64,000 bases of DNA from Corynebacterium spheniscorum (GTDB taxonomy: Bacteria > Actinomycetota > Actinomycetes > Mycobacteriales > Mycobacteriaceae), in the NCBI RefSeq assembly GCF_900113445.1, contig NZ_FOPJ01000007.1, positions 1 to 64,000 of the forward strand, read 5' to 3'. Both the position numbers and the translations under genes were made by a program. Below the pieces are notes generated by a model. That model worked only from the letters and a program-made list of their open reading frames with translations. It was not told the origin of the DNA and searched no databases. How positions within the stretch are numbered: the stretch's first letter is position 1; each line of letters begins with the position of its first letter. This document shows, in pieces, positions 34,227 to 46,321 of this stretch.

Positions 34227-35036
34227 ATGACTTTTCAACCCGGGCAAGGTGAACTTTTCCAGCTCAGCGACCTTTTCCATGCGCGTAGCTTCGCGAATGC
34301 GCTACAGCGCACCGGCCGCCCCGTCAGCTTGATCTGCATCCACGCTGAGCAACTCCACCCCGGCCACATGGCGCTCATGCAGGCAGCTGCCACCATCCCG
34401 CGCGGCATTACGGTGGTGTGCAGCAAGCACCGGCTCTCCAAGAAAGATCAGCGCGCTTTAAGCGCGGCGAAGGTAGCGGCGTACCTTCATGCCCCGGAAG
34501 AGATGGTGTGGCCACGCGGCCAACATATTCAGCTCACCACCCCGCAGGGTTCGCGCACGCAACAGCGCCAGGATGAGATCAACCAGAAGCTGAACTATAT
34601 TGCCGCTGTGTTGATTGCTATAAACCCCAGTGATCTTTTCTTAGGGGAAAAGGACCGCGAGTTCTTGTTGGAAGTGCACCGTTTGATTCGAGAGTTTCAC
34701 TTTGATGTGAAAGCCCATGGGGTGCCCACTTTGAGGATGAATGATGGGGTGCCGTTTAGCCACCGCTACCGCGGTCTATCTGAAGAAGAACAAGAAGAAT
34801 TACGCGTGCTATCGGCAGCTTTGGTGGCAGCCACGCATGCTGCCGATAAAGGCCCTAAGGCTGTTCGTCAGGTAGCCGAAGAGGTGTGCGCTGGTGCCGG
34901 GGTGCAGCTTCAGCGCGTGACGCTGCTCAGCCCAGAACTAAAAGAGGATGATATAGACGGTGATGCCTATATCATCCTCGAAACCCAGGTGGGTGGGAAG
35001 ATCGCCAGCGATAATGCGGCGCTAAGTTTTAACTAG
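34227..35036 (+). CDS. Divergent pantoate-beta-alanine ligase-like protein
   Basis: This 269-residue nucleotidyl-transferase fold resembles PanC, which makes pantothenate from pantoate and beta-alanine. It keeps LHPGHMALMQAA (HxGH-like motif) and LGEKDREFL. The usual N-terminal PTMGxLHxGH is replaced by SLICIHAEQLHPGH, and the Ser-Ser-Arg-Asn motif after RxxDGL appears as MNDGVPFSHRYRGLS. Loss of these residues suggests reduced or altered activity. A true PanC may lie elsewhere. The stop overlaps that of hpaI on the other strand. Confidence 0.7.
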   Translation: MTFQPGQGELFQLSDLFHARSFANALQRTGRPVSLICIHAEQLHPGHMALMQAAATIPRGITVVCSKHRLSKKDQRALSAAKVAAYLHAPEEMVWPRGQHIQLTTPQGSRTQQRQDEINQKLNYIAAVLIAINPSDLFLGEKDREFLLEVHRLIREFHFDVKAHGVPTLRMNDGVPFSHRYRGLSEEEQEELRVLSAALVAATHAADKGPKAVRQVAEEVCAGAGVQLQRVTLLSPELKEDDIDGDAYIILETQVGGKIASDNAALSFN

Positions 35037-35821
35037 CTCTCCGGCGGGCAGAATTCACTAGCTAAAGCCCGCGCGCGGGTGGCAAGTAGTTGCACATCCG
35101 CACCGATGGCGGCGAAATCTGCGCCTTGGTCAAGGTAGCTGCGGGCTTGGGCCAGGTCGAAGGCATTAACGCCTACTGGTTTGCCGGCATCATGGACTGC
35201 CTGGAAGACGTGGGCGACCGCCTCAGTGACCTTGGGGTGGGCTTGTTGGCCGATATAGCCCATGGAAGCGGCCAGATCGCTGGGACCGACGAAAACTTGG
35301 TCCACACCGTCGACAGCAGCAATGGCGGCGGCGTTGTCCACCGCGGCCGCGGACTCGATTTGCACGCACAGGCTAAGCGTCTCACTCGCGTTGGTGAGGT
35401 AATTGGGCACCCCATTCCACCGTGAGGAACGTGCTAGGGCACTACCCACACCACGCACACCGCGCGGCGGATAATGCATAGCTTTGACCGCCGCTTCGGC
35501 TTCCTCAGCACTATCAATCATGGGGACCATGAGGTTCTGGACACCTAGGTCCAGGTACTGCTTGATCAGCACCGTGTCATTTACTGGGGCGCGCACAATC
35601 ATGGTCGCCGGGTAGGCGGCTGCAGCGCGCAGTAACGAGGTGATGGTTTCCAGAGAATAAGGCGAATGCTCACCATCGATAAGAACCCAATCGAAACCAC
35701 TACCAGCAGCGATTTCGCAGCACACCTCCGAGCCACTGGAGACCCACATGCCCACCAGCGGGCGGGAGCTTTCTTTGAGCTTGTGGGCGAACGTGCCGGG
35801 GAGCTCTAGATGAAACGACAT
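35033..35821 (-). CDS. hpaI: 4-Hydroxy-2-oxoheptanedioate aldolase (HpaI)
   Basis: This 262-residue class II HpcH/HpaI aldolase splits 2,4-dihydroxyhept-2-enedioate into pyruvate and succinate semialdehyde, the last step of the homoprotocatechuate route. Visible features: WVLIDGEHSPY (metal Glu region), PMIDSAEEAEAAVKAMHYPPRGVRGVG, and VQIESAAAVDN with FVGPSDLAASMG (metal Glu and Asp). The ATG follows TAGGAG and lies inside the end of hpaH (16-base overlap). It is convergent with the PanC-like gene, sharing a CTAG at the stops. Confidence 0.93.
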   Translation of the reverse strand: MSFHLELPGTFAHKLKESSRPLVGMWVSSGSEVCCEIAAGSGFDWVLIDGEHSPYSLETITSLLRAAAAYPATMIVRAPVNDTVLIKQYLDLGVQNLMVPMIDSAEEAEAAVKAMHYPPRGVRGVGSALARSSRWNGVPNYLTNASETLSLCVQIESAAAVDNAAAIAAVDGVDQVFVGPSDLAASMGYIGQQAHPKVTEAVAHVFQAVHDAGKPVGVNAFDLAQARSYLDQGADFAAIGADVQLLATRARALASEFCPPES

Positions 35822-36591
35822 GTGATTGCTCCTAAGGAACCATAATCAGCGTGCACAGTATCGCCGGGATGTACCCACATGGGTTTGGTGAAAGAACCAG
35901 CCAAAATAATATCCCCGGCAGCCAAGGTATCGCCGTGCGCATGGAGTTTATTGGCCAGCCACGCAACACCCATAGCGGGGTGGTTCAACACCGCGGCCGC
36001 CACCCCGGTGTCCTCGATGGACTCATTGCGATAGAGCAAGGCCGATACCCAACGTAGATCCACCGCATCGGGGGCGACGGGGTTACCGCCATACACCATG
36101 GCACCCATGGCGGCATTATCGCTAATGGTGTCCACAATGGTGCGGCCATCCATCTCGATGCGGGAATCGAGGATCTCTAAGGCCGGGACCACATATTCGG
36201 TGGCGCTAAGCACATCGAAGATGGTGGCATTGGGGCCGCTGAGTTCCTTTTTTAATTTGAAGGCCAGCTCAACTTCAATGCGCACACTGGAGAAACGATC
36301 GTGTTCAATGACCGAGCCGTTTTCGAAGATCATGTCTTCGAAGATGGCGCCATAGTCCGGTTCGGTAATGCCGGTGGCTTCTTGCATGACCTTGGAGGTT
36401 AAGCCGATTTTTCGGCCGACTAGGCGGCGCCCATTTTCGATGCCGCGGCGAACCCACTCGCGTTGGACAGCGTAGGAATCCTCCACAGTCATATCGGGGA
36501 AACGCTGGGTTAAAAGCGGCACCATGGTGTGGGTGCGTTCGGCTTCGGCGAGTTCATCAGCGATGCTGATGTGCTGCTCTTTGCTCAACAT
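35806..36591 (-). CDS. hpaH: 2-Oxo-hept-4-ene-1,7-dioate hydratase (HpaH)
   Basis: This 261-residue enzyme of the FAH/hydratase superfamily adds water to the C7 ring-cleavage product. Motifs: GRKIGLTSKVMQEATGITEPDYGAIFEDM, RIEVELAFKL (E-x-E metal ligands), EILDSRI, and LAGSFTKPMWVHPGDTVHADYGSLG. AGGAG precedes the ATG. It is coupled to hpaI by overlap. The 188-base gap to hpaD holds a hairpin. Confidence 0.93.
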   Translation of the reverse strand: MLSKEQHISIADELAEAERTHTMVPLLTQRFPDMTVEDSYAVQREWVRRGIENGRRLVGRKIGLTSKVMQEATGITEPDYGAIFEDMIFENGSVIEHDRFSSVRIEVELAFKLKKELSGPNATIFDVLSATEYVVPALEILDSRIEMDGRTIVDTISDNAAMGAMVYGGNPVAPDAVDLRWVSALLYRNESIEDTGVAAAVLNHPAMGVAWLANKLHAHGDTLAAGDIILAGSFTKPMWVHPGDTVHADYGSLGAITCRFI

Positions 36592-36779: not shown

Positions 36780-37874
36780 TTAGAGCGAATGGCCGAGCTT
36801 GAACTCGCCCTTCTTCCAATCGGGCATCTCGCCTTCATCGGGGGAGCGGGTGTAGGAGAAACCGTCGGCGCCGATGGTTTGCTCCAGCTCGGAAGCCTCG
36901 GTGCGATGCACCAGGGGCACGAGGTTGCCGTCGAGGTCGAGCACGCGAGAACCGTCGCGGTACCAGGAGGGAACCACCGGGGTGCCCCACCAGTCGCGGC
37001 GCTGGTTATCGTGAACATCCCAGGTCACGCGCGGATTATCGGGGTCGCCGGTGTAATAATCCTGGGTGTAGATCTCCACGCGGTGGCCATCCGGGTCGCG
37101 CAGGTAGAGGTAGAAAGCATTGGAGACACCGTGGCGGCCGGGGCCGCGTTCGATGGCATCCGAGCGACGCAGGGCGCCGAGCTTATCGCAGATGGCGAGA
37201 ATATTGTGCTTCTCGTGGGTGGCGAAAGCGATGTGGTGCATACGGGGGCCATCGCCGCCGGTCATGGCAGTGTCATGCACGGTGGGCTTGCGGCGCATCC
37301 AGGCGGCGTAGACAGTGCCTTCTTCATCCTGAATGTCTTCAGTGACGCGGAAGCCGAGGTCTTCCATGTACTGCACGGCGGTGGGAACATCCGGGGTGAT
37401 CTGGTTGAAGTGATCGAGGCGGACCAGCGCGCCGGGGCCGTAGAGGTGGTAGTGCCAGGCGAGGCGCTCGACATGCTCAATTTCGTAGAAGAACTCATAG
37501 GGGAAGCCCAGCGGGTCTTCCACGCGAACGGCGTCGCCGATGCCCTTGACGAAGCCATCCTTCTTGCGCTCCACGCGGCAGCCGCGGGCGCGGTAGAACT
37601 CTTCGGCGAGATCCAGATCCTTGGGGCTGCGCACGCGGAAACCGAAAGCAGCGACGGCGGCTTCGGGGCCTTGGCGAAGCACCAGGTTGTGGTGGATGAA
37701 TTCCTCGAAGGTGCGCAGGTAGATGGCGTTTTCATCTTCCTCGGTGACGACTAGGCCGAGGACGTCGACGTAGAACTCACGGGAGGCCTTGAGATCGGTG
37801 ACGACGATCTCCATGTAGGCGCAGCGCAGAATATCGGGGGCTTGGGGAGCGTTGGTGGTGGATTGATCAGACAT
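36780..37874 (-). CDS. hpaD: Homoprotocatechuate 2,3-dioxygenase (HpaD)
   Basis: This 364-residue extradiol dioxygenase of the vicinal-oxygen-chelate fold opens 3,4-dihydroxyphenylacetate next to the hydroxyls. It strongly resembles the Brevibacterium fuscum enzyme as I recall it (start PDILRCAY, YEDEN/IYLR, EFIHHNLVL). The metal ligands fall at identical numbers: His155 (RLDHFNQ), His214 (MHHIAF), Glu267 (RVEIYTQDYY). Second-shell His200, Tyr257, and the carboxylate-binding Arg243, His248 and Arg293 are also kept. This supports a phenylacetate-type substrate over catechol or protocatechuate. The start MSDQSTTNAP has AAGGAG upstream. Confidence 0.95.
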   Translation of the reverse strand: MSDQSTTNAPQAPDILRCAYMEIVVTDLKASREFYVDVLGLVVTEEDENAIYLRTFEEFIHHNLVLRQGPEAAVAAFGFRVRSPKDLDLAEEFYRARGCRVERKKDGFVKGIGDAVRVEDPLGFPYEFFYEIEHVERLAWHYHLYGPGALVRLDHFNQITPDVPTAVQYMEDLGFRVTEDIQDEEGTVYAAWMRRKPTVHDTAMTGGDGPRMHHIAFATHEKHNILAICDKLGALRRSDAIERGPGRHGVSNAFYLYLRDPDGHRVEIYTQDYYTGDPDNPRVTWDVHDNQRRDWWGTPVVPSWYRDGSRVLDLDGNLVPLVHRTEASELEQTIGADGFSYTRSPDEGEMPDWKKGEFKLGHSL

Positions 37875-37984
37875 GACTGGGAGTGTTCTCCTTGTGTTAT
37901 GGGGAAAGGAAGATGAGGAAACCACACATCCTTGAGTGCGCTAGGAGCGCTGGGGGCAGGTAAGAGCGATTCGAGCTGGAGGGG

Positions 37985-38068: not shown

Positions 38069-39598
38069 TTAGCCCTGCTTGCCGAAGACGGGGTTGTGCA
38101 CTTCGCCGAGGTTGATGTGCACGGCCTGCTGGTCGGTGTAGAAGTCGATGGAGCGGTAGCCGCCTTCATGGCCAAGACCAGAAGCCTTCACGCCACCGAA
38201 GGGAGTGCGCAGGTCACGGACGTTATTGGAGTTCAGCCACACCATGCCGGCCTCGATATCGTGGGCGAGGTTGTGGGCGCGCTTGAGATCCGAAGTCCAC
38301 ACATAGGCGGCCAGGCCATAGCGGGTGTTGTTGGCGAGCTCCAGGGCTTCTTCATCGGTGTCGAAGGGCGTGATGGCAACGACGGGGCCGAAGATTTCTT
38401 CTTGGAAGATGCGGGCATCCGGGCTGACATCGGCGAAGACGGTGGGTTGGATGAAGTTGCCTTCGGGGAAGCCTTCGGGGCGTTCGCCGCCGGCCTTGAG
38501 GGTGGCTTCTTGCTTACCGATCTCGATGTAGCTGGTGACCTTCTCATAGTGCTCGGGGTGCACCAGGGCGCCGACCTCGGTGGTGGGATCAGAGGGCAGA
38601 CCAACCTTCACGCGCTTAGCTTGGGCAGCGTAGCGCTCCACGAACTCCTCGTAGATGGGGCGTTCCACCAAGATGCGAGAACCAGCGGTGCAGCGCTCAC
38701 CATTTAAGGAGAAGACACCGAAGATGGTGGCATCGATGGCAGTATCTAGGTCAGCATCAGCGAAAACGATGGCCGGGGACTTGCCGCCGAGCTCCATGGA
38801 CAGGCCCTTAAGGAAGGGGGCGGCGTTGCCGAAGATGATCTGGCCGGTGCGGGATTCACCGGTGAAGGAGATCAGCGGAACATCGGGGTGCTTGACCAGC
38901 GGGTCGCCCGCGTAGCCTTCTTCACCAAAGCCATTGACCAGGTTGAAGACACCCTTGGGTAGGCCAGCTTCTTCGAAGATTCCGGCCCACAGTTGTGCCG
39001 ACAGCGGAGTGAATTCGGCGGGCTTGAGGACCACGCTATTGCCGGTGGCGATGGCGGGGGCGAGCTTCCAGCTTTCCAGCATGAAGGGGGTGTTCCAGGG
39101 CGTGATCAGGCCAGCAACGCCGATGGGCTTGCGGTTGACGTAGTTGATCTGGCGCTCGGGAACCTTGAAGGCATCATCGGTTTGGGCGACGATGAGGTCA
39201 GCGAAGAAACGGAAGTTCTCAGCTGCGCGGCGGGCCTGGCCCTTAGCCTGGGAGATTGGCAGACCGGAGTCGAAGGATTCCCAAGCGGCGAGGGTATCGC
39301 CACGGGTTTCCGCGATATCGGCGATGCGGTGCAGAATGCGGGAGCGTTCACGCGGCAGCATCCGCGCCCAGGGGCCTTCGTCGAAGGCTTTTTTAGCGGC
39401 TGCGACAGCGGCATCAATATCGGCGGGCTTGCCGGAAGCGGCCTTGATATAAGGCTTGTTGGTTACCGGATCGAGGACGTCGAATTCATCGCCATCGATG
39501 GAGTCAACGAATTCGCCATTGATGTAGTGGCGGATCTTCTCGGGAAGGTCCTTGGGCTTTGCAGCGGAGTTATCAAAGTTCTTATCAGCGTTTGCCAT
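38069..39598 (-). CDS. hpaE: 5-Carboxymethyl-2-hydroxymuconate semialdehyde dehydrogenase (HpaE)
   Basis: This 509-residue NAD-dependent aldehyde dehydrogenase oxidises the HpaD product to the tricarboxylic acid CHM. Catalytic Glu lies in SMELGGKSPAIVFADADLD and Cys in NGERCTAGSRILV; the cofactor loop SFTGESRTGQIIF is present. C-terminal PFGGVKASGLGHEGGYRSIDFYTDQQAVHI is typical of HpaE/HpcC. AGGAGG precedes the ATG. The HpaE assignment instead of another dehydrogenase rests on gene context plus family resemblance. Confidence 0.92.
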   Translation of the reverse strand: MANADKNFDNSAAKPKDLPEKIRHYINGEFVDSIDGDEFDVLDPVTNKPYIKAASGKPADIDAAVAAAKKAFDEGPWARMLPRERSRILHRIADIAETRGDTLAAWESFDSGLPISQAKGQARRAAENFRFFADLIVAQTDDAFKVPERQINYVNRKPIGVAGLITPWNTPFMLESWKLAPAIATGNSVVLKPAEFTPLSAQLWAGIFEEAGLPKGVFNLVNGFGEEGYAGDPLVKHPDVPLISFTGESRTGQIIFGNAAPFLKGLSMELGGKSPAIVFADADLDTAIDATIFGVFSLNGERCTAGSRILVERPIYEEFVERYAAQAKRVKVGLPSDPTTEVGALVHPEHYEKVTSYIEIGKQEATLKAGGERPEGFPEGNFIQPTVFADVSPDARIFQEEIFGPVVAITPFDTDEEALELANNTRYGLAAYVWTSDLKRAHNLAHDIEAGMVWLNSNNVRDLRTPFGGVKASGLGHEGGYRSIDFYTDQQAVHINLGEVHNPVFGKQG

Positions 39599-39888: not shown

Positions 39889-40590
39889 TTAGTTGCTGCT
39901 CATCTTGGTGAAACTATCTACGTCTTTGAGGCGATCGGTTTCATCCAATTTCTTGCGGTACTTGACCATGGTGTTCATCCGGTGATCACGCATTTGCGCT
40001 TCCAAGTAGCTGGGTTCAGCACCGGCGGCGATCAGGTCAAGCATGCGGGAGTGTTCAGCCACCGATTCCATTGCGCGATCTGGGATATATCGGAAGGTAG
40101 ATACCCGCAGATAATCCAATTTCTCCCATTCCGTGTAGACGATCTCGGCGAGATGTCGGTTGGGGCAACGGTCGAAAAGTACGCGGTGGAATTGGCGGTT
40201 TAACTCGGTGAAAGCTGCGGCATCGAAGTCATCGAGCAGAGCTTCCATCTTGTCGTTGAATTCCCGTGCGGTGGCTAGGTCAGTGGGAGTGAGATGAGGT
40301 ACTGCTAGGGCAGTGGCATAGCCTTCCAATATCGCGAGGGTTTCCATGGTTTGGAAATAAACCTCACGGTTCAAAGTGGAGACCCGGGCACCTACGTTGT
40401 GTTCGTAGGTGACTTGGCCTTCTGCTTCGAGCTGGCGAATAGCTTCGCGCACAGGAACTGTGGACACATTCAGTTCCGAAGCGATGGCAGATAGAACAAG
40501 CCGGTGGCCGGGTTCGAACTCGCGGGTGCGAATGCGCTCCCGGATCCACTGGTAGGCCAGTTCTGATTTGCTTTGCTGACGGTCATTCAT
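39889..40590 (-). CDS. GntR-family regulator (FCD type) of the hpa cluster
   Basis: This 233-residue regulator has an N-terminal winged helix (LVLSAIASELNVSTVPVREAIRQLEAEGQVTYEHNVGARV) and a C-terminal FCD ligand domain (ELNRQFHRVLFDRC, His residues for metal, EHSRMLDLIAAG). Such proteins respond to small carboxylic acids. It lies within the hpa genes, so a pathway intermediate is the probable signal. The candidate operators are the shared motifs at 42251 and 44005. Confidence 0.9.
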   Translation of the reverse strand: MNDRQQSKSELAYQWIRERIRTREFEPGHRLVLSAIASELNVSTVPVREAIRQLEAEGQVTYEHNVGARVSTLNREVYFQTMETLAILEGYATALAVPHLTPTDLATAREFNDKMEALLDDFDAAAFTELNRQFHRVLFDRCPNRHLAEIVYTEWEKLDYLRVSTFRYIPDRAMESVAEHSRMLDLIAAGAEPSYLEAQMRDHRMNTMVKYRKKLDETDRLKDVDSFTKMSSN

Positions 40591-40666: not shown

Positions 40667-42190
40667 CTAGCTGGACACTCCTTCAGCCGGGTTGGCTGGC
40701 GGGTTATCCGCTAAGAACTTCTGGTAATTCTCTTTATTCTCCCCGGTGGGCGGGAAGAGTCCATCCAAAGAACCACCCTGGGCGACCTGTTCAGCCACCC
40801 ATTCGTCTTCATGTTCCTTGGCTAGAGCTGCATCAACAACCTCTTCGACCAGGTCACGTGGGATCACGATGACGCCATCATCATCACCAACGATGATGTC
40901 ACCGGGAACCACCGTGGCATTGCCACAAGCAATTGCCAGGTCAACATCCCAAGGCACATGCTTGCGACCCAAGACCGCTGGATGCGCACCTTGGGTAAAA
41001 ACTGGTAGTCCGATTTCCTTGACTGCTTCATAGTCGCGGACGCAACCGTCGGTGACCACACCCGCAGCGCCGCGGAACTTAGCGCGCAGCGCCAGAACAT
41101 CGCCCATGGTGCCGGAGCCGGGTTCGCGGCGAGCTTCAATAACCAACACTTCGCCGGGGCGAACGTTATCGAAGGCACGCTTTTGAGCATTGAAGCCGCC
41201 GCCATGGGACTTGAAGAGGTCCTCACGGCCGGGAAGGAAACGTAAGGTGCGGGCCACGCCGACCACCTTGGTGCCCTTGGTTTGGGGATAGACACCTTCG
41301 ATGACGACTTGGTTGAGTCCGCGGTTACGCAGCTGTGCTGACAGTCCCGCAGTTGGTGCCGCCATGAGGCGGGCGCGCAGCTCATCAGAGATTGCATTGG
41401 GATCCTCGGGCAGCCCCGCGGATGTGCGATCACCATAAGCATCTTCACGTTGCTTATCGTCGATCTGTGGCAGCAAGCCGATCTCGGGATCGAAGTCACC
41501 CGGGCCTTCCACCACGGTGGTCTTCAATTTGCCGGAGGTCGGTTGGCCTTCAGCATGTGGGGCATCCACTTCCACCTCAACAACATCGCCGGGGTGAATC
41601 ACAGTGGACCCAGCTGGCGTGCCGGTCAGAATGATATCGCCGGTTTCCAGGGTCATGTGTTGGGAAAGATCCGCCACGAATTGTGCGAGCGGGAAGATCA
41701 TATGCGCATCAGAGGTGTCATCGTCTTGGACGACTTCACCATTTACCCAGGTGCGTAGCCGCAGCTGAGTGGGGTCAATGCTTTGCGCATCAATCAGTTC
41801 CGGCCCGAGCGGGGTGTAACCATCACGGGACTTAGAGCGGGTATTAGAACCCTTATCCTGCGCGCGATAGTCATAGATACCCAGGTCATTAGAGGCAGTC
41901 ACATAAGCAACGTGATCCCAGGCTTCAGCCAGGGACACGTGCTGAGCGGGCTTACCAATGATCAGGGCGATTTCGCCTTCAAACGCTAGGAGTTCCGTGC
42001 CGGCGGGGCGAATAACCTCGCTACCGCTTTCAGCTAAAGAGCTCGAGGCCTTAAGGAAATAGGAAGGCTTCTTTGGCCAACGGCCACGCTGTGCAGCCCG
42101 AGACTCGAAAGCCACATGCACAGCAATGATTTTGCCCGGTTTCTGCGGCAGTACCGCGGGAACCTTGGGCTGGCTGGGGTGATCAACCAT
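40667..42190 (-). CDS. FAH-RraA fusion: OPET decarboxylase/HHDD isomerase-like (HpaG role)
   Basis: This 507-residue two-domain protein starts with MVDHPSQPKVPA after AAAGGAG. Residues about 15-245 form an FAH-superfamily domain with FEGEIALIIGKPA (metal E-x-E), DLGIYDYRAQDKGSNTRSKSRDGYTPLGP and GDIILTGTPAG. Residues about 285-470 form an RraA/HMG-aldolase domain with RTLRFLPGREDL, GTMGDVLALRAKFRGAAGVVTDGCVRDYEAV (Arg-Asp metal motif) and PGDIIVGDDDGVIVIP. Enterobacterial HpaG has two FAH domains; here the second is an RraA domain, a family that includes oxaloacetate and hydroxymethyl-oxoglutarate lyases. The decarboxylation step may therefore be done by a non-homologous domain. Confidence 0.85.
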   Translation of the reverse strand: MVDHPSQPKVPAVLPQKPGKIIAVHVAFESRAAQRGRWPKKPSYFLKASSSLAESGSEVIRPAGTELLAFEGEIALIIGKPAQHVSLAEAWDHVAYVTASNDLGIYDYRAQDKGSNTRSKSRDGYTPLGPELIDAQSIDPTQLRLRTWVNGEVVQDDDTSDAHMIFPLAQFVADLSQHMTLETGDIILTGTPAGSTVIHPGDVVEVEVDAPHAEGQPTSGKLKTTVVEGPGDFDPEIGLLPQIDDKQREDAYGDRTSAGLPEDPNAISDELRARLMAAPTAGLSAQLRNRGLNQVVIEGVYPQTKGTKVVGVARTLRFLPGREDLFKSHGGGFNAQKRAFDNVRPGEVLVIEARREPGSGTMGDVLALRAKFRGAAGVVTDGCVRDYEAVKEIGLPVFTQGAHPAVLGRKHVPWDVDLAIACGNATVVPGDIIVGDDDGVIVIPRDLVEEVVDAALAKEHEDEWVAEQVAQGGSLDGLFPPTGENKENYQKFLADNPPANPAEGVSS

Positions 42191-42280: not shown

Positions 42281-42296
42281 AGTGTGCAGCGTCACA
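42281..42296. promoter_or_regulatory. Weak GlxR/CRP-like site
   Basis: AGTGTGCAGCGTCACA keeps the right half TCACA and GTG of the left half of the corynebacterial GlxR consensus TGTGA-N6-TCACA, with four mismatches. Catabolite control of an aromatic cluster would be sensible, but the match is poor. Confidence 0.25.
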
Positions 42297-42352: not shown

Positions 42353-43735
42353 ATGTCCTCGAAGTACAAAAATGATTCGGTGGTGCACCCAGAAATAACG
42401 ACCAGTGCTGCCGAACGCCGCCGGGTGGTAGCTGCAACCACCATCGGCACGGCAATCGAGTGGTACGACTACTTCCTCTATGCCAGTGTGGCTGGCTTGG
42501 TGTTTCACAAGCTCATGTTCGGCCCACTTGAAGGTGGCCTAGCAGCTGTTATCAGCTTCGCTACCGTGGGTATTTCCTTCCTCTTCCGGCCACTCGGCGC
42601 ATTCCTTGCCGGACACTATGGCGACAAGCTTGGCCGTCGCCTGGTGCTAATGGTCACCCTCTTTACGATGGGCGGCGCAACCGCATTAATCGGCTTGCTG
42701 CCCACCTACGATTCCATCGGCGTTGCCGCCCCGATCCTCTTGGTGCTCCTCCGTATCCTGCAGGGTGTTTCCGCAGGTGGCGAATGGGGTGGCGCCGTGT
42801 TGCTGGCCGTGGAACACGCACCAGCTAAAAAGCGTGGCCTCTATGGAGCTGGCCCGCAGATCGGCGTTCCGGCTGGTCTGTTGCTTTCCTCTGGTGTGCT
42901 GGCGGTTATGAACGCCATCGCCCCAGGTGAGGCTTTCCTTGAGTGGGGATGGCGCGTGCCCTTCCTCTTCTCCATCGTCCTGGTAGGTATCGGCTACTAC
43001 ATCCGCCGCGGCGTGGAAGAATCCCCCGTTTTCGAAGAGCTCGTGGAGATCACCGAGCACGAAGCAAAACACCCGCTCAAGGTGCTATTCCGCGAGCACA
43101 CTCCGCTGGTATTCATTGCCGCTTTGGTATTCGCCGGCAACGGCACCGTTGGTTATATGACCACCGGTGGTTATATCCAGAACTACGCCACCAACACAGA
43201 AGGCCTGGCCATGGACCGTGGCGGCGTGCTGATTGCCGTCACCCTATCGGCAGCGAGCTGGATGGTCTTCACCCTATTTGCCGGATTTATTTCCGATTAT
43301 CTGGGCCGACGCAATACCTACATCCTCGGATTCATCCTCCAAGCTATCGGCGTTTTCGCTCTCTTCCCGCTGGTCAACACCGGCGATATGATGAAGCTGA
43401 CTATCGCTTTGCTGGGCCTGACCGTTGGCTTGGGTCTGACCTATGGCCAGCAATCCGCTATGTACGCCGAGCTCTTCCCGGCCTCCATCCGCGCCTCCGG
43501 TGTGTCCATCACTTACGCCATTGGTTCCCTGCTCGGCGGCGCTTTTGCCCCGATGATTGCGGCCGCTTTGGTTCGCGCCACCGGGTCTACCACCGCTGTT
43601 ACCGGTTATCTGGTCAGCGCCACCATTGTGGGGCTGATCGCCGCCATGATTCTGCGCGACCGCACCCGCATCCCGCTGGGTCGCGACCACGAAGCAGATC
43701 AAGCAAGTGGTCACTTCCTATTCTCCAAGGTCTAA
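42353..43735 (+). CDS. MFS transporter, metabolite:H+ symporter (MHS) type
   Basis: This 460-residue carrier has 12 predicted membrane helices. The signatures GTAIEWYDYFLYASVAGLVFHKLMFG, RPLGAFLAGHYGDKLGRRLVLMVTL and RILQGVSAGGEWGGAVLLAVEHAP are typical of the MHS subfamily (ShiA, ProP, KgtP). CAGGAGGG precedes the ATG. It is divergent from the hpa operon and followed by the hydroxylase gene, so uptake of a hydroxyphenyl carboxylic acid is the likely role. Confidence 0.9.
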   Translation: MSSKYKNDSVVHPEITTSAAERRRVVAATTIGTAIEWYDYFLYASVAGLVFHKLMFGPLEGGLAAVISFATVGISFLFRPLGAFLAGHYGDKLGRRLVLMVTLFTMGGATALIGLLPTYDSIGVAAPILLVLLRILQGVSAGGEWGGAVLLAVEHAPAKKRGLYGAGPQIGVPAGLLLSSGVLAVMNAIAPGEAFLEWGWRVPFLFSIVLVGIGYYIRRGVEESPVFEELVEITEHEAKHPLKVLFREHTPLVFIAALVFAGNGTVGYMTTGGYIQNYATNTEGLAMDRGGVLIAVTLSAASWMVFTLFAGFISDYLGRRNTYILGFILQAIGVFALFPLVNTGDMMKLTIALLGLTVGLGLTYGQQSAMYAELFPASIRASGVSITYAIGSLLGGAFAPMIAAALVRATGSTTAVTGYLVSATIVGLIAAMILRDRTRIPLGRDHEADQASGHFLFSKV

Positions 43736-44428: not shown

Positions 44429-46321
44429 GTGCAGTTTCACCACTACGGCTATGTCTCCGAGGATCCCCGTGTTCTTCCCGCCTCAGGCTATGGCCTGAAC
44501 CGCCCAGAGGAACTACCGGATGAGATGGATGTTCTCATCGTTGGCTCCGGTCCCGCCGGAATGATCGCCGCCGCGCAGTTGTCGATGTTCCCCGACGTGC
44601 GCACCCATGTCATTGAAAAGCGTGATGGCCGGCTAGTCCTCGGCCAAGCCGATGGTATCCAAGCCCGCTCGGTAGAAACCTTCCAGGCTTTCGGCTTTGC
44701 CACCGAAATCGAGGACGAGGCCTACCGCATCACCGAAATGTCCTTCTGGAATCAGGACCCCGAGAGGCCTGAAAACATCATCCGCATGGGTCGCCCCATC
44801 GACGATGAATTCGGCATCTCCGAATTCCCGCACCTCATCGTCAACCAGGCGCGCGTGCTGGACTACTTCGCACGCTTCATGCGCTACTCGCCTTCCAAGA
44901 TGACCCCGGACTACGGCTGGGAATTCGCGGACCTGAAGGTGGAAGAAGAAGGGGAGTACCCCGTCGAGGTCACCTTGCGCCGCTGCGCTGAGGACGAAGA
45001 GGAACACACCCGCACCGTGCGCACGAAGTTCGTTATCGGCTGCGATGGTGCTCGCTCCCAGGTCCGTAAATCCATTGGCCGTCGCCTCAGCGGTGACTCC
45101 GCCAACCACGCCTGGGGTGTGATGGATGTCCTGGCCGTCACCGACTTCCCGGATCTACGCACCAAGTGCGCCATCCACTCCAAGAGCGGTTCCATCCTGC
45201 ACATCCCACGTGAAGGTGGCTACCTCAGCCGCATGTACGTGGATCTTGGCGATGTGCCGGAAGACCCCAAGCATTCGGTTCGTGACACCCCGCTCGAAGA
45301 AGTCATTGAACGCGCCAACGCCATCCTTCACCCCTACACCCTCGACGTGAAGAATGTTGCCTGGAACTCCATTTACGAAGTTGGCCACCGACTGGTCGAC
45401 GCCTTCGATGATCGCCCCGCGGACTGCCCCGAGGACACCGTTCCGCGCGTCTTCCTCACCGGTGATGCCTGCCATACGCACTCCGCTAAGGCCGGCCAGG
45501 GCATGAATGTGTCCATGCAGGATGGTTTCAATATCGGCTGGAAACTTGGGCATGTGGTTTCCGGGCGCGCCCCAGTCGAATTGCTCGGTACCTACCATGA
45601 CGAGCGCCAACCGGCTGCCCAGAACCTCATCAACTTCGATAAGGAATGGTCCACGCTGATGGCCACTCCTCAAGATGAGCTCGGCTCCCCGGATGAGATT
45701 GAGAAGTACTACGTCCAGGCAGAAGAGTTCGCTGCCGGATTCCTCACGCAGTACTCCGACAACATCATCACCGGCACTGATGAGCACCAAGACCTGGCCA
45801 GTGGTTTCCCGATTGGCCGCCGCTTCAAGTCGCACCCGGCGATGCGCCGCTGCGATGCGCTACCCAAGCACATTGGGCATGAGCACTTCGCTGATGGCCG
45901 CTACCGCATCTACGTCTTTGCCGACCCGGCTGCCCCGAGCGATCCGGATTCCCCGACCGCTAAGTGGGCTGAGTGGATGTCGAGCGATGAGAATTCGCCC
46001 TTCAAGCGCTGCACCCCCGCTGATGGCGATGAAAATGCCATCTTCGATATCAAGGTGATCTACCAGCAGCACTACCGCGACTTTGAGGTCACTGACGCGC
46101 CGAAGCTCTTCCGTCCGAATGTTGGCCCCTTCGATCTCCATAACCTGGAAAACGTCTGGTCCGCCATTAAGGACAACGACATCTTCGAAGCTCGTGGCAT
46201 TAGCCGTGATGGCGCCATCGTGGTGGTCCGCCCGGATCAATATGTGTCCGCAGTGCTCCCGCTTGATGATCGCGAAGAACTCACCAAGCTATTTGAAGGC
46301 CTGCTGAACTCCGCGAACTAA
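44429..46321 (+). CDS. FAD aromatic hydroxylase, MobA/phenol 2-monooxygenase family
   Basis: This 630-residue single-component flavoprotein inserts one oxygen ortho to a phenol group using NAD(P)H. FAD motifs: VLIVGSGPAGMIAAAQLS (about 36-53), FVIGCDGARSQVRKSIG, and VFLTGDACHTHSAKAGQGMNVSMQD. The C-terminal thioredoxin-like domain ends ARGISRDGAIVVVRPDQYVSAVLPL. Start (MQFHHYGY), core and end closely parallel Comamonas 3-hydroxybenzoate 4-monooxygenase MobA. GTG start with GAGGAGG upstream. Next to hpaD the expected product is 3,4-dihydroxyphenylacetate, so 3- or 4-hydroxyphenylacetate is the inferred substrate; 3-hydroxybenzoate remains possible. Confidence 0.88.
   Translation: MQFHHYGYVSEDPRVLPASGYGLNRPEELPDEMDVLIVGSGPAGMIAAAQLSMFPDVRTHVIEKRDGRLVLGQADGIQARSVETFQAFGFATEIEDEAYRITEMSFWNQDPERPENIIRMGRPIDDEFGISEFPHLIVNQARVLDYFARFMRYSPSKMTPDYGWEFADLKVEEEGEYPVEVTLRRCAEDEEEHTRTVRTKFVIGCDGARSQVRKSIGRRLSGDSANHAWGVMDVLAVTDFPDLRTKCAIHSKSGSILHIPREGGYLSRMYVDLGDVPEDPKHSVRDTPLEEVIERANAILHPYTLDVKNVAWNSIYEVGHRLVDAFDDRPADCPEDTVPRVFLTGDACHTHSAKAGQGMNVSMQDGFNIGWKLGHVVSGRAPVELLGTYHDERQPAAQNLINFDKEWSTLMATPQDELGSPDEIEKYYVQAEEFAAGFLTQYSDNIITGTDEHQDLASGFPIGRRFKSHPAMRRCDALPKHIGHEHFADGRYRIYVFADPAAPSDPDSPTAKWAEWMSSDENSPFKRCTPADGDENAIFDIKVIYQQHYRDFEVTDAPKLFRPNVGPFDLHNLENVWSAIKDNDIFEARGISRDGAIVVVRPDQYVSAVLPLDDREELTKLFEGLLNSAN

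Follow-up and report, generated by a model that had tools for sequence, protein, structure and literature searches.

The window, i.e., the whole stretch of 64,000 nt of Corynebacterium spheniscorum DNA that was analyzed, contains on the minus strand a gene (40667..42190, an open frame from ATG to stop) whose 507-aa product combines an FAH domain with an RraA-like domain. In the Pfam search, residues 25–227 match FAA_hydrolase (E 4e-50; 41510..42118, minus strand) and residues 280–442 match RraA-like (E 2.4e-33; 40865..41353, minus strand), with a weakly conserved interdomain linker (41354..41509, minus strand); PF02962 (HpaF) is not among the Pfam families of the protein at E 0.001. The protein is a member of the NCBIfam family NF009399 (PRK12764), the model of which covers residues 10–494 with 812.4 bits versus the curated cut-off of 444. 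This family already catalogues the whole fusion architecture, under a name that gives only “fumarylacetoacetate hydrolase family protein” and no reaction. The longer GTG frame reported by the ORF finder, reaching position 42295, is superfluous, as the ATG at 42190 is directly preceded by a ribosome-binding-like sequence, AAAGGAGAACTC. The closest named homolog among the matches listed, from Corynebacterium hylobatis, is 82% identical.

The fusion gene heads a set of minus-strand genes constituting a homoprotocatechuate (hpa) cluster. It is followed by the gene of a GntR/FCD regulator (39889..40590; Pfam GntR and FCD), hpaE encoding CHMS dehydrogenase (38069..39598; TIGR02299, 650 bits), hpaD encoding homoprotocatechuate 2,3-dioxygenase (36780..37925; TIGR02295, 429 bits), and hpaH encoding 2-oxo-hept-4-ene-1,7-dioate hydratase (35806..36591; TIGR02312, 367 bits), the latter three being over the cut-offs, in support of the hpa context of the original prediction. 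The last gene, encoding an HpaI-like pyruvate aldolase (35033..35821), overlaps hpaH by 16 bases and scores 312 bits with TIGR02311, below the cut-off of 368.8. On the plus strand, a divergent MFS transporter gene (42353..43735, identified by family matches) has homologs in 18 of the 44 fusion loci considered below, and the gene of a single-component FAD monooxygenase of the phenol hydroxylase type (44429..46321; FAD_binding_3 and Phe_hydrox_dim, NF006144 with 987 bits), possibly the ring hydroxylase of the pathway, has homologs in 24. Besides hpaH, two more FAH genes are present elsewhere in the genome. Most likely, the fusion gene encodes the central enzyme of the meta-cleavage pathway of homoprotocatechuate (3,4-dihydroxyphenylacetate), a tyrosine-derived aromatic acid.

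The family is tightly associated with HpaD. Among 151 genomes of the genus, 28 have the fusion over the cut-off, 28 have HpaD, and 27 have both; the two discordant genomes, one with the fusion and no HpaD (G131) and one with HpaD and no fusion (G119), are incomplete assemblies (82 and 53% complete). Among 394 genomes of the class, the fusion is found over the cut-off in 31 and HpaD in 32, and all 31 fusion genomes have HpaD. This distribution rules out a chance or mis-assembled fusion. The fusion is split into two frames in one genome of the genus (G112) and cut by the contig end in one genome of the class (G389). In G473, HpaD is spread over two overlapping frames and is accompanied by a part of HpaE, with no fusion; a Pfam scan of five neighboring frames gave matches for two of them, neither being FAH or RraA. 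HpaD-like matches below the cut-off are found in the absence of the fusion in G292 and, in the genus, in G040 and G147, while G139, also of the genus, has such a match in addition to its HpaD.

The domain architecture, for which a database search was suggested with the original prediction, is catalogued as NF009399, and its neighborhood is conserved. Out of 80 homologous loci, 44 with long matches (L092–L135) were counted as fusions, and the other 36 (L136–L171) were handled separately. In the 44 named fusion loci, some of them on short contigs, GntR is found nearby in all 44, hpaE and hpaD in 40 each, hpaH in 27, hpaI in 24, and HpaF in none. At the thresholds used, and again with some contigs being short, L113, L126, L128, and L129 showed no HpaE nearby, and L127, L128, L130, and L131 no HpaD; an additional FAH-type gene is present near the fusion in two loci (L126 and L133). 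The same cluster is carried by plasmids of Rhodococcus sp. NBC_00297 and Paenarthrobacter aurescens TC1. In the latter the fusion is labeled “putative Dimethylmenaquinone methyltransferase,” likely a misannotation, and the plasmid gene table, which is incomplete in PLSDB, lists no hpaD. According to PMC3534580, Arthrobacter sp. Rue61a is able to use 4-hydroxyphenylacetate, homoprotocatechuate, and tyrosine for growth, and A. aurescens TC1 is named there as the closest relative with a sequenced genome. This growth may be taken as a hint of the pathway operating in vivo.

In the textbook homoprotocatechuate pathway, the CHM isomerase HpaF acts before HpaG. In the C. spheniscorum genome PF02962 yields no match even at E 10, no PF01361 (4-OT-type) tautomerase is found by a search in which the controls were detected, and PF14552 gives only a match of E 0.29, below the cut-off; the search comprised these three families. 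Out of four other fusion genomes searched, three have PF01361 somewhere in the genome (G552, G553, and G554) and one has none (G551). PF02962 gave no match in any of the 151 genomes of the genus, but as the control genomes gave none in that search either, this result carries no weight by itself. In the class it exceeds the cut-off in 26 of 394 genomes; G358 is the single one among them that carries the fusion as well, the two lying on different contigs. We observe no negative association of HpaD and HpaF in the class (Fisher p 0.71), because 25 of these 26 genomes have no HpaD, and hence the argument is based on comparison of clusters. As a positive control, PF02962 was found in three out of three hpa plasmids from outside Actinomycetes and in none of four fusion plasmids, these being plasmid records and not whole genomes. 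Near the fusion, HpaF was found in 0 of 44 named loci with an HMM of three sequences, built from three of the 15 HpaF-bearing loci described below, and again in 0 of 44 with an HMM of 15 sequences and filters off.

For comparison, we considered 16 non-fusion loci, stretches of only about 17–21 kb from outside Actinomycetes (Deinococcus, Alphaproteobacteria, Burkholderia, Erwinia, and Alloalcanivorax). This is not a random sample: L086–L088 and L194–L204 were hand-picked from the listed plasmid matches, and L152 and L168 were added from the 80 loci mentioned above. HpaF is present in 15 of these loci and RraA in none, and ten have a single FAH domain, all of these ten having HpaF. HpaE was not found in L202 and L204, and HpaD was not found at the threshold used in L152, L168, L196, and L197; the record of L197 annotates an hpaD. 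The single exception with respect to HpaF is the Alloalcanivorax locus L152: in its 21 kb, hpaH, hpaI, and two FAH genes are present, but neither HpaF nor RraA. In Erwinia sp. E602, the HpaD of which is 77.5% identical to that of Corynebacterium, the operon contains a two-FAH HpaG and HpaF. Hence, the RraA module alternates with HpaF, in 15 of these 16 loci, rather than with the second FAH half. This bears directly on the original prediction, which placed the RraA-type domain “in place of the second HpaG half”: RraA does stand beside one FAH domain, but the description is incomplete, since 10 of 16 non-fusion loci hold a single FAH, and what disappears is HpaF. With single-FAH clusters this common, replacement of the second HpaG half as a settled point is rejected.

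The AlphaFold2 model of the fusion, built with 40 sequences, consists of two confident domains (mean pLDDT 89.9, pTM 0.74). One fusion alignment (A2) comprised 39 of 44 fusion loci and the studied protein, with L116, L120, L128, L133, and L135 left out. The structure model, together with the Pfam and NF009399 matches, agrees with the predicted fusion of an FAH domain to an RraA-type one. In VIA-align comparisons, residues 265–471 superimpose on RraAS2 (5x15; Z 28.1, rmsd 1.4, 198 aligned) and residues 263–487 on HMG/CHA aldolase (3noj; Z 22.8, rmsd 3.2, 205 aligned), while the N-terminal part matches FAH enzymes, including HpcE (1i7o; Z 25.0, rmsd 2.3, 200 aligned). The Asp-Gly-x-x-Arg-Asp metal motif noted earlier is retained as D381-G382-C-V-R385-D386, and in the 3noj alignment D364, R385, and D386 fall on D102, R123, and D124 of HMG/CHA aldolase (positions counted by hand). 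These three residues are invariant in all 45 aligned fusions, as are the loop residues H403, R409, and H411 of the RraA half. The FAH half has the superfamily signature of Glu-x-Glu…Asp ligands and the active-site Lys: E71 and E73 are kept in 44 of 45 fusions, and D102 and K120 in all 45, the one row lacking the two Glu (L135) having a gap caused by the chosen start position and not a substitution. The odd residues at positions 25 and 31 of the fusion alignment belong to L128.

Both halves are constrained to a similar extent: 64 of 214 columns in FAH and 60 of 195 in RraA are at least 95% identical, compared to 4 of 43 in the linker (residues 232–274). Moreover, the halves diverge together, with the Pearson correlation of distances equal to 0.63 and none of 2000 permutations as high. 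Co-divergence, similar constraint, and a loose linker fit a single old fusion with both halves working.

The FAH half is closer to the C-terminal half of HpaG than to the N-terminal one. It scores 157.2 bits with TIGR02303 (HpaG C-terminal subunit; not a member, the cut-off being 276.4) and 104.6 bits with TIGR02305; against 1gtt the scores are 123.9 bits for the C-half and 55.4 for the other, and with a profile, 171.1 and 79.2. In the same alignments the two metal Glu of the FAH half are not matched by Glu in the N-terminal domain of HpaG. In the available text of PMC12718150, the C-terminal domain of HpcE, with its Ca-binding Glu/Asp triad, is assigned as the decarboxylase and the N-terminal domain as the isomerase, on structural grounds only. 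The FAHD1-type lid dyad H30/E33 (PMC7115867; PMC8398924, as far as their available text goes) is not matched: the studied fusion has R31/Q34, with Arg in 43 and Gln in 38 of 45 fusions. The lid is Arg/Glu in the neighboring standalone FAHs, in the fusions L126, L130, and L131, and in the Agrobacterium hpa FAH. Since the neighboring standalone proteins have Arg/Glu, the lid Arg probably predates the fusion, and we do not regard the altered lid as decisive. The FAH tree comprised 14 chosen fusion rows out of 45, L133, and a second copy of L126 in addition to the standalone FAHs; an RraA tree used 14 fusion rows. The standalone FAHs branching near the fusion halves (L143, L144, and L155) belong to clusters that also encode an aldolase, a hydratase, an extradiol dioxygenase, and an ALDH resembling HpaE, and in which no RraA or HpaF was found; among seven genomes searched of the standalone-FAH group, PF01361 is absent in three and present in four.

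Based on these observations, we suggest that the fusion most likely takes the place of two separate proteins of other bacteria, HpaF and HpaG. That it covers the segment from CHM via OPET to HHDD/OHED in one chain seems quite probable, as judged from sequence; L152 and the presence of PF01361 in other fusion genomes keep us from a stronger statement. It is supported by the intact conserved metal sites, the association with HpaD, and the searches of the genome, in which no HpaF-type or 4-OT-type tautomerase was found. For the division of labor, we favor decarboxylation by the FAH half and isomerization by the RraA half, though we would give this assignment only an even chance. With E71, E73, and D102 as ligands of a divalent metal that binds the 2-oxo acid, the FAH half would decarboxylate OPET, the reaction assigned to the C-half of HpaG. 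In the RraA half, a metal at D386, together with R385, would hold the same kind of 2-oxo or 2-hydroxy acid while a proton is moved, converting CHM to OPET and perhaps also HHDD to OHED. The tautomerase HpaF would thus be displaced by an unrelated metal-dependent fold. Homology and parsimony are the reasons to leave decarboxylation to FAH and to have proton transfer supplied by RraA. Enolization lies within RraA-fold chemistry: according to the available text of PMC5065237, the methyl protons of pyruvate are exchanged by HMG/CHA aldolase at a rate of 604 per s when phosphate is present. The fullest form of this reading, with one polypeptide being the CHM isomerase, OPET decarboxylase, and HHDD isomerase, and with non-orthologous replacement of HpaF by an RraA-fold metal-dependent isomerase across Actinomycetes using the pathway, is put forward more tentatively, with somewhat less than an even chance of being correct.

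Several points stand against the favored assignment. CHMI speeds the process, but CHM isomerizes slowly unaided (PMC12718150, available text), so that the loss of HpaF need not be compensated, and L152 shows that HpaF can be missing from a cluster without RraA. The PF01361 proteins of G552, G553, and G554 could serve as another tautomerase there. RraA-fold enzymes are known decarboxylases, and the Arg/Gln lid may mean that the FAH half has changed its role, yet Arg/Glu is seen in the standalone FAHs and in three fusions. Further FAH genes exist, both near the fusion (2 of 44 loci) and elsewhere in the studied genome (two besides hpaH). Some of these points fit the reverse division, in which the RraA half is the OPET decarboxylase, as suggested by the original prediction, and the FAH half isomerizes CHM and/or HHDD. 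The premise that RraA-like enzymes include decarboxylases holds: in the available texts, HMG/CHA aldolase decarboxylates oxaloacetate via pyruvate enolate (PMC5065237), and FlDet of the RraA family is reported as a dehydratase/decarboxylase of KDGR (2-keto-3-deoxy-hexarate; PMC8563752), while FAHD1 is described as an oxaloacetate tautomerase besides a decarboxylase (PMC12176266). The Arg/Gln lid of most fusions, as well as a standalone-RraA operon in the same genus with an extradiol dioxygenase, an ALDH, and RidA, and no FAH among ten proteins scanned, also agree with this possibility. Nevertheless, we consider it not well supported and less likely than the favored assignment, as the FAH half is nearest to the HpaG half assigned as the decarboxylase (157 vs. 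104 bits) and keeps the metal triad. Moreover, 10 of the 16 non-fusion loci combine a single FAH domain with HpaF, so that FAH is likely the decarboxylase there.

Both sites might also serve one step, RraA replacing the HHDD-isomerase partner that boosts the decarboxylase, with CHM isomerizing spontaneously or by another tautomerase. In Acinetobacter baumannii the activity of OPETD rises 60-fold in complex with HHDDI (PMC12718150, available text), and this gain, the slow isomerization of CHM without CHMI, both FAH genes in the HpaF-less cluster L152, and PF01361 in three of four other fusion genomes speak for this reading. On the other hand, ten of 16 loci outside Actinomycetes manage with a single FAH and no second partner, all ten with HpaF, and HpaF is kept in none of the 44 fusion loci, which leaves this reading well behind, with only a slight probability. 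The Asp/Arg/Asp site, matching that of HMG/CHA aldolase, could belong to a second pyruvate aldolase acting on the last intermediate, all the more as the HpaI-like protein of the studied cluster is under the HpaI cut-off and 20 of 44 loci, some on short contigs, showed no HpaI close to the fusion. This is very improbable, given the HpaI-type aldolase that the operon studied shares with 24 of 44 fusion loci and the invariance of H403, R409, and H411 in 45 of 45 fusions, pointing to a substrate of its own. Still harder to believe is a non-catalytic RraA half, be it a relic or an RNase-regulator-like module, even though regulation of RNase E was the first role known for RraA proteins (PMC5065237, available text): D364, R385, and D386 are invariant, and the RraA columns are held about as strongly as those of FAH.

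The preferred reading, with FAH as the decarboxylase and RraA as the isomerase, retains one part of the original prediction, namely that within a single polypeptide a non-homologous domain has taken over a pathway function, which our analysis supports as an inference. The Actinomycete hpa clusters examined have no recognizable HpaF, and therefore one step had no enzyme; the fusion family would fill this step, and a catalogued NCBI family would obtain a function. In the open-licence literature searched, we found no function for the NF009399/PRK12764 family, and no paper mentioning RraA together with fumarylacetoacetate hydrolase. The fusion family as such is already known from NCBIfam; the proposed displacement of HpaF is new, and the association with HpaD and the alternation with HpaF are results of this analysis. 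Such a displacement would clearly exemplify the swapping of one fold for another within a fused enzyme and would add a catalytic role to the RraA fold: we know of no RraA isomerase, and this one, if true, would to our knowledge be the first with that fold.

Known systems share different parts of this arrangement. NF009399/PRK12764 proteins have the same length and architecture as the studied fusion, with no difference in architecture. HpaG/HpcE of enterobacteria (1gtt, 1i7o; PRK15203) has the pathway and one FAH half in common with it, but the second module is FAH there and RraA here, and with its one FAH domain the fusion does not belong to the two-FAH family PRK15203 (135.4 bits vs. the cut-off of 811); moreover, HpaG of Erwinia sp. 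E602 travels with HpaF, and the fusion, without it. The split genes hpaG1 and hpaG2 of A. baumannii (OPETD and HHDDI) likewise provide two cooperating modules for the same segment, but, as described in the available text of PMC12718150, both are FAH, encoded separately, and accompanied by CHMI (HpaF). Single-FAH hpa clusters of Deinococcus and Rhizobiales use one FAH domain for the segment, as the fusion does, with HpaF present and RraA absent, the reverse of fusion loci. HMG/CHA aldolase of the LigK type (3noj) and RraAS2 (5x15) have the fold of the C-terminal half, and 3noj shares the metal-site residues, whereas the fusion is below the LigK equivalog cut-offs (88.9 bits vs. 304.5 for TIGR02798, 93.5 vs. 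179 for NF006731), and its RraA half is joined to FAH and has loop residues of its own. Finally, FlDet, compared here by description and not by sequence, has the RraA family and 2-oxo acid chemistry in common with the fusion, but acts in another pathway and, in the available text of PMC8563752, is not described as fused.

Fusion-type FAH genes are also found in three alphaproteobacterial clusters (L143, L144 and L155), together with genes for a BphC-type dioxygenase, an HpaE-like aldehyde dehydrogenase, and HpaI-like and HpaH-like proteins; in the L143 cluster, a ketosteroid dehydrogenase-like gene is located downstream. The Alloalcanivorax locus (L152, 9872–12913) has two FAH genes with hpaH and hpaI, and no HpaF, RraA or HpaD was found in the 21 kb covered.

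HpaD itself has a close homologue on a plasmid of Erwinia sp. E602 (L200, 9962–11035), 77.5% identical to the Corynebacterium protein and located in an operon of enterobacterial type that also encodes HpaG and HpaF. Possibly, hpaD alone was transferred. Homologues of HpaF (PF02962) are common in one large-genome genus of the class search (g27), with scores of about 20–53 bits, and among the g27 genomes having such a homologue, HpaD exceeds the cut-off only in G358, a fusion carrier.

Two copies of the fusion are irregular. One (L128, 3417–4934), with unusual lid residues (His at 31), lies on a 5.4-kb contig filed under Stenotrophomonas maltophilia P13, and reflects either contamination or transfer. 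The other, from genome G112 (L179, 9207–10806), is in two reading frames, with the split falling within the FAH domain, either a real break or a sequencing error.

A separate conserved operon with a standalone RraA is shared by a locus from the same genus (L193, 3896–11692) and a Streptomyces coelicoflavus plasmid (L173). It encodes an HpaB-type hydroxylase, a VOC dioxygenase-like protein, RraA, a cupin, an aldehyde dehydrogenase, RidA, a permease and a flavin reductase. This set of genes resembles a meta-type pathway in which RraA would act as a lyase or decarboxylase.

The hpa cluster is adjoined by a gene of a single-component, phenol-hydroxylase-type FAD monooxygenase (44429–46321), whose homologues are close to the fusion in 24 of the 44 fusion loci. 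This protein may be a hydroxylase of 4- or 3-hydroxyphenylacetate; in certain other hpa operons examined, its place is taken by HpaB or HpaBC.
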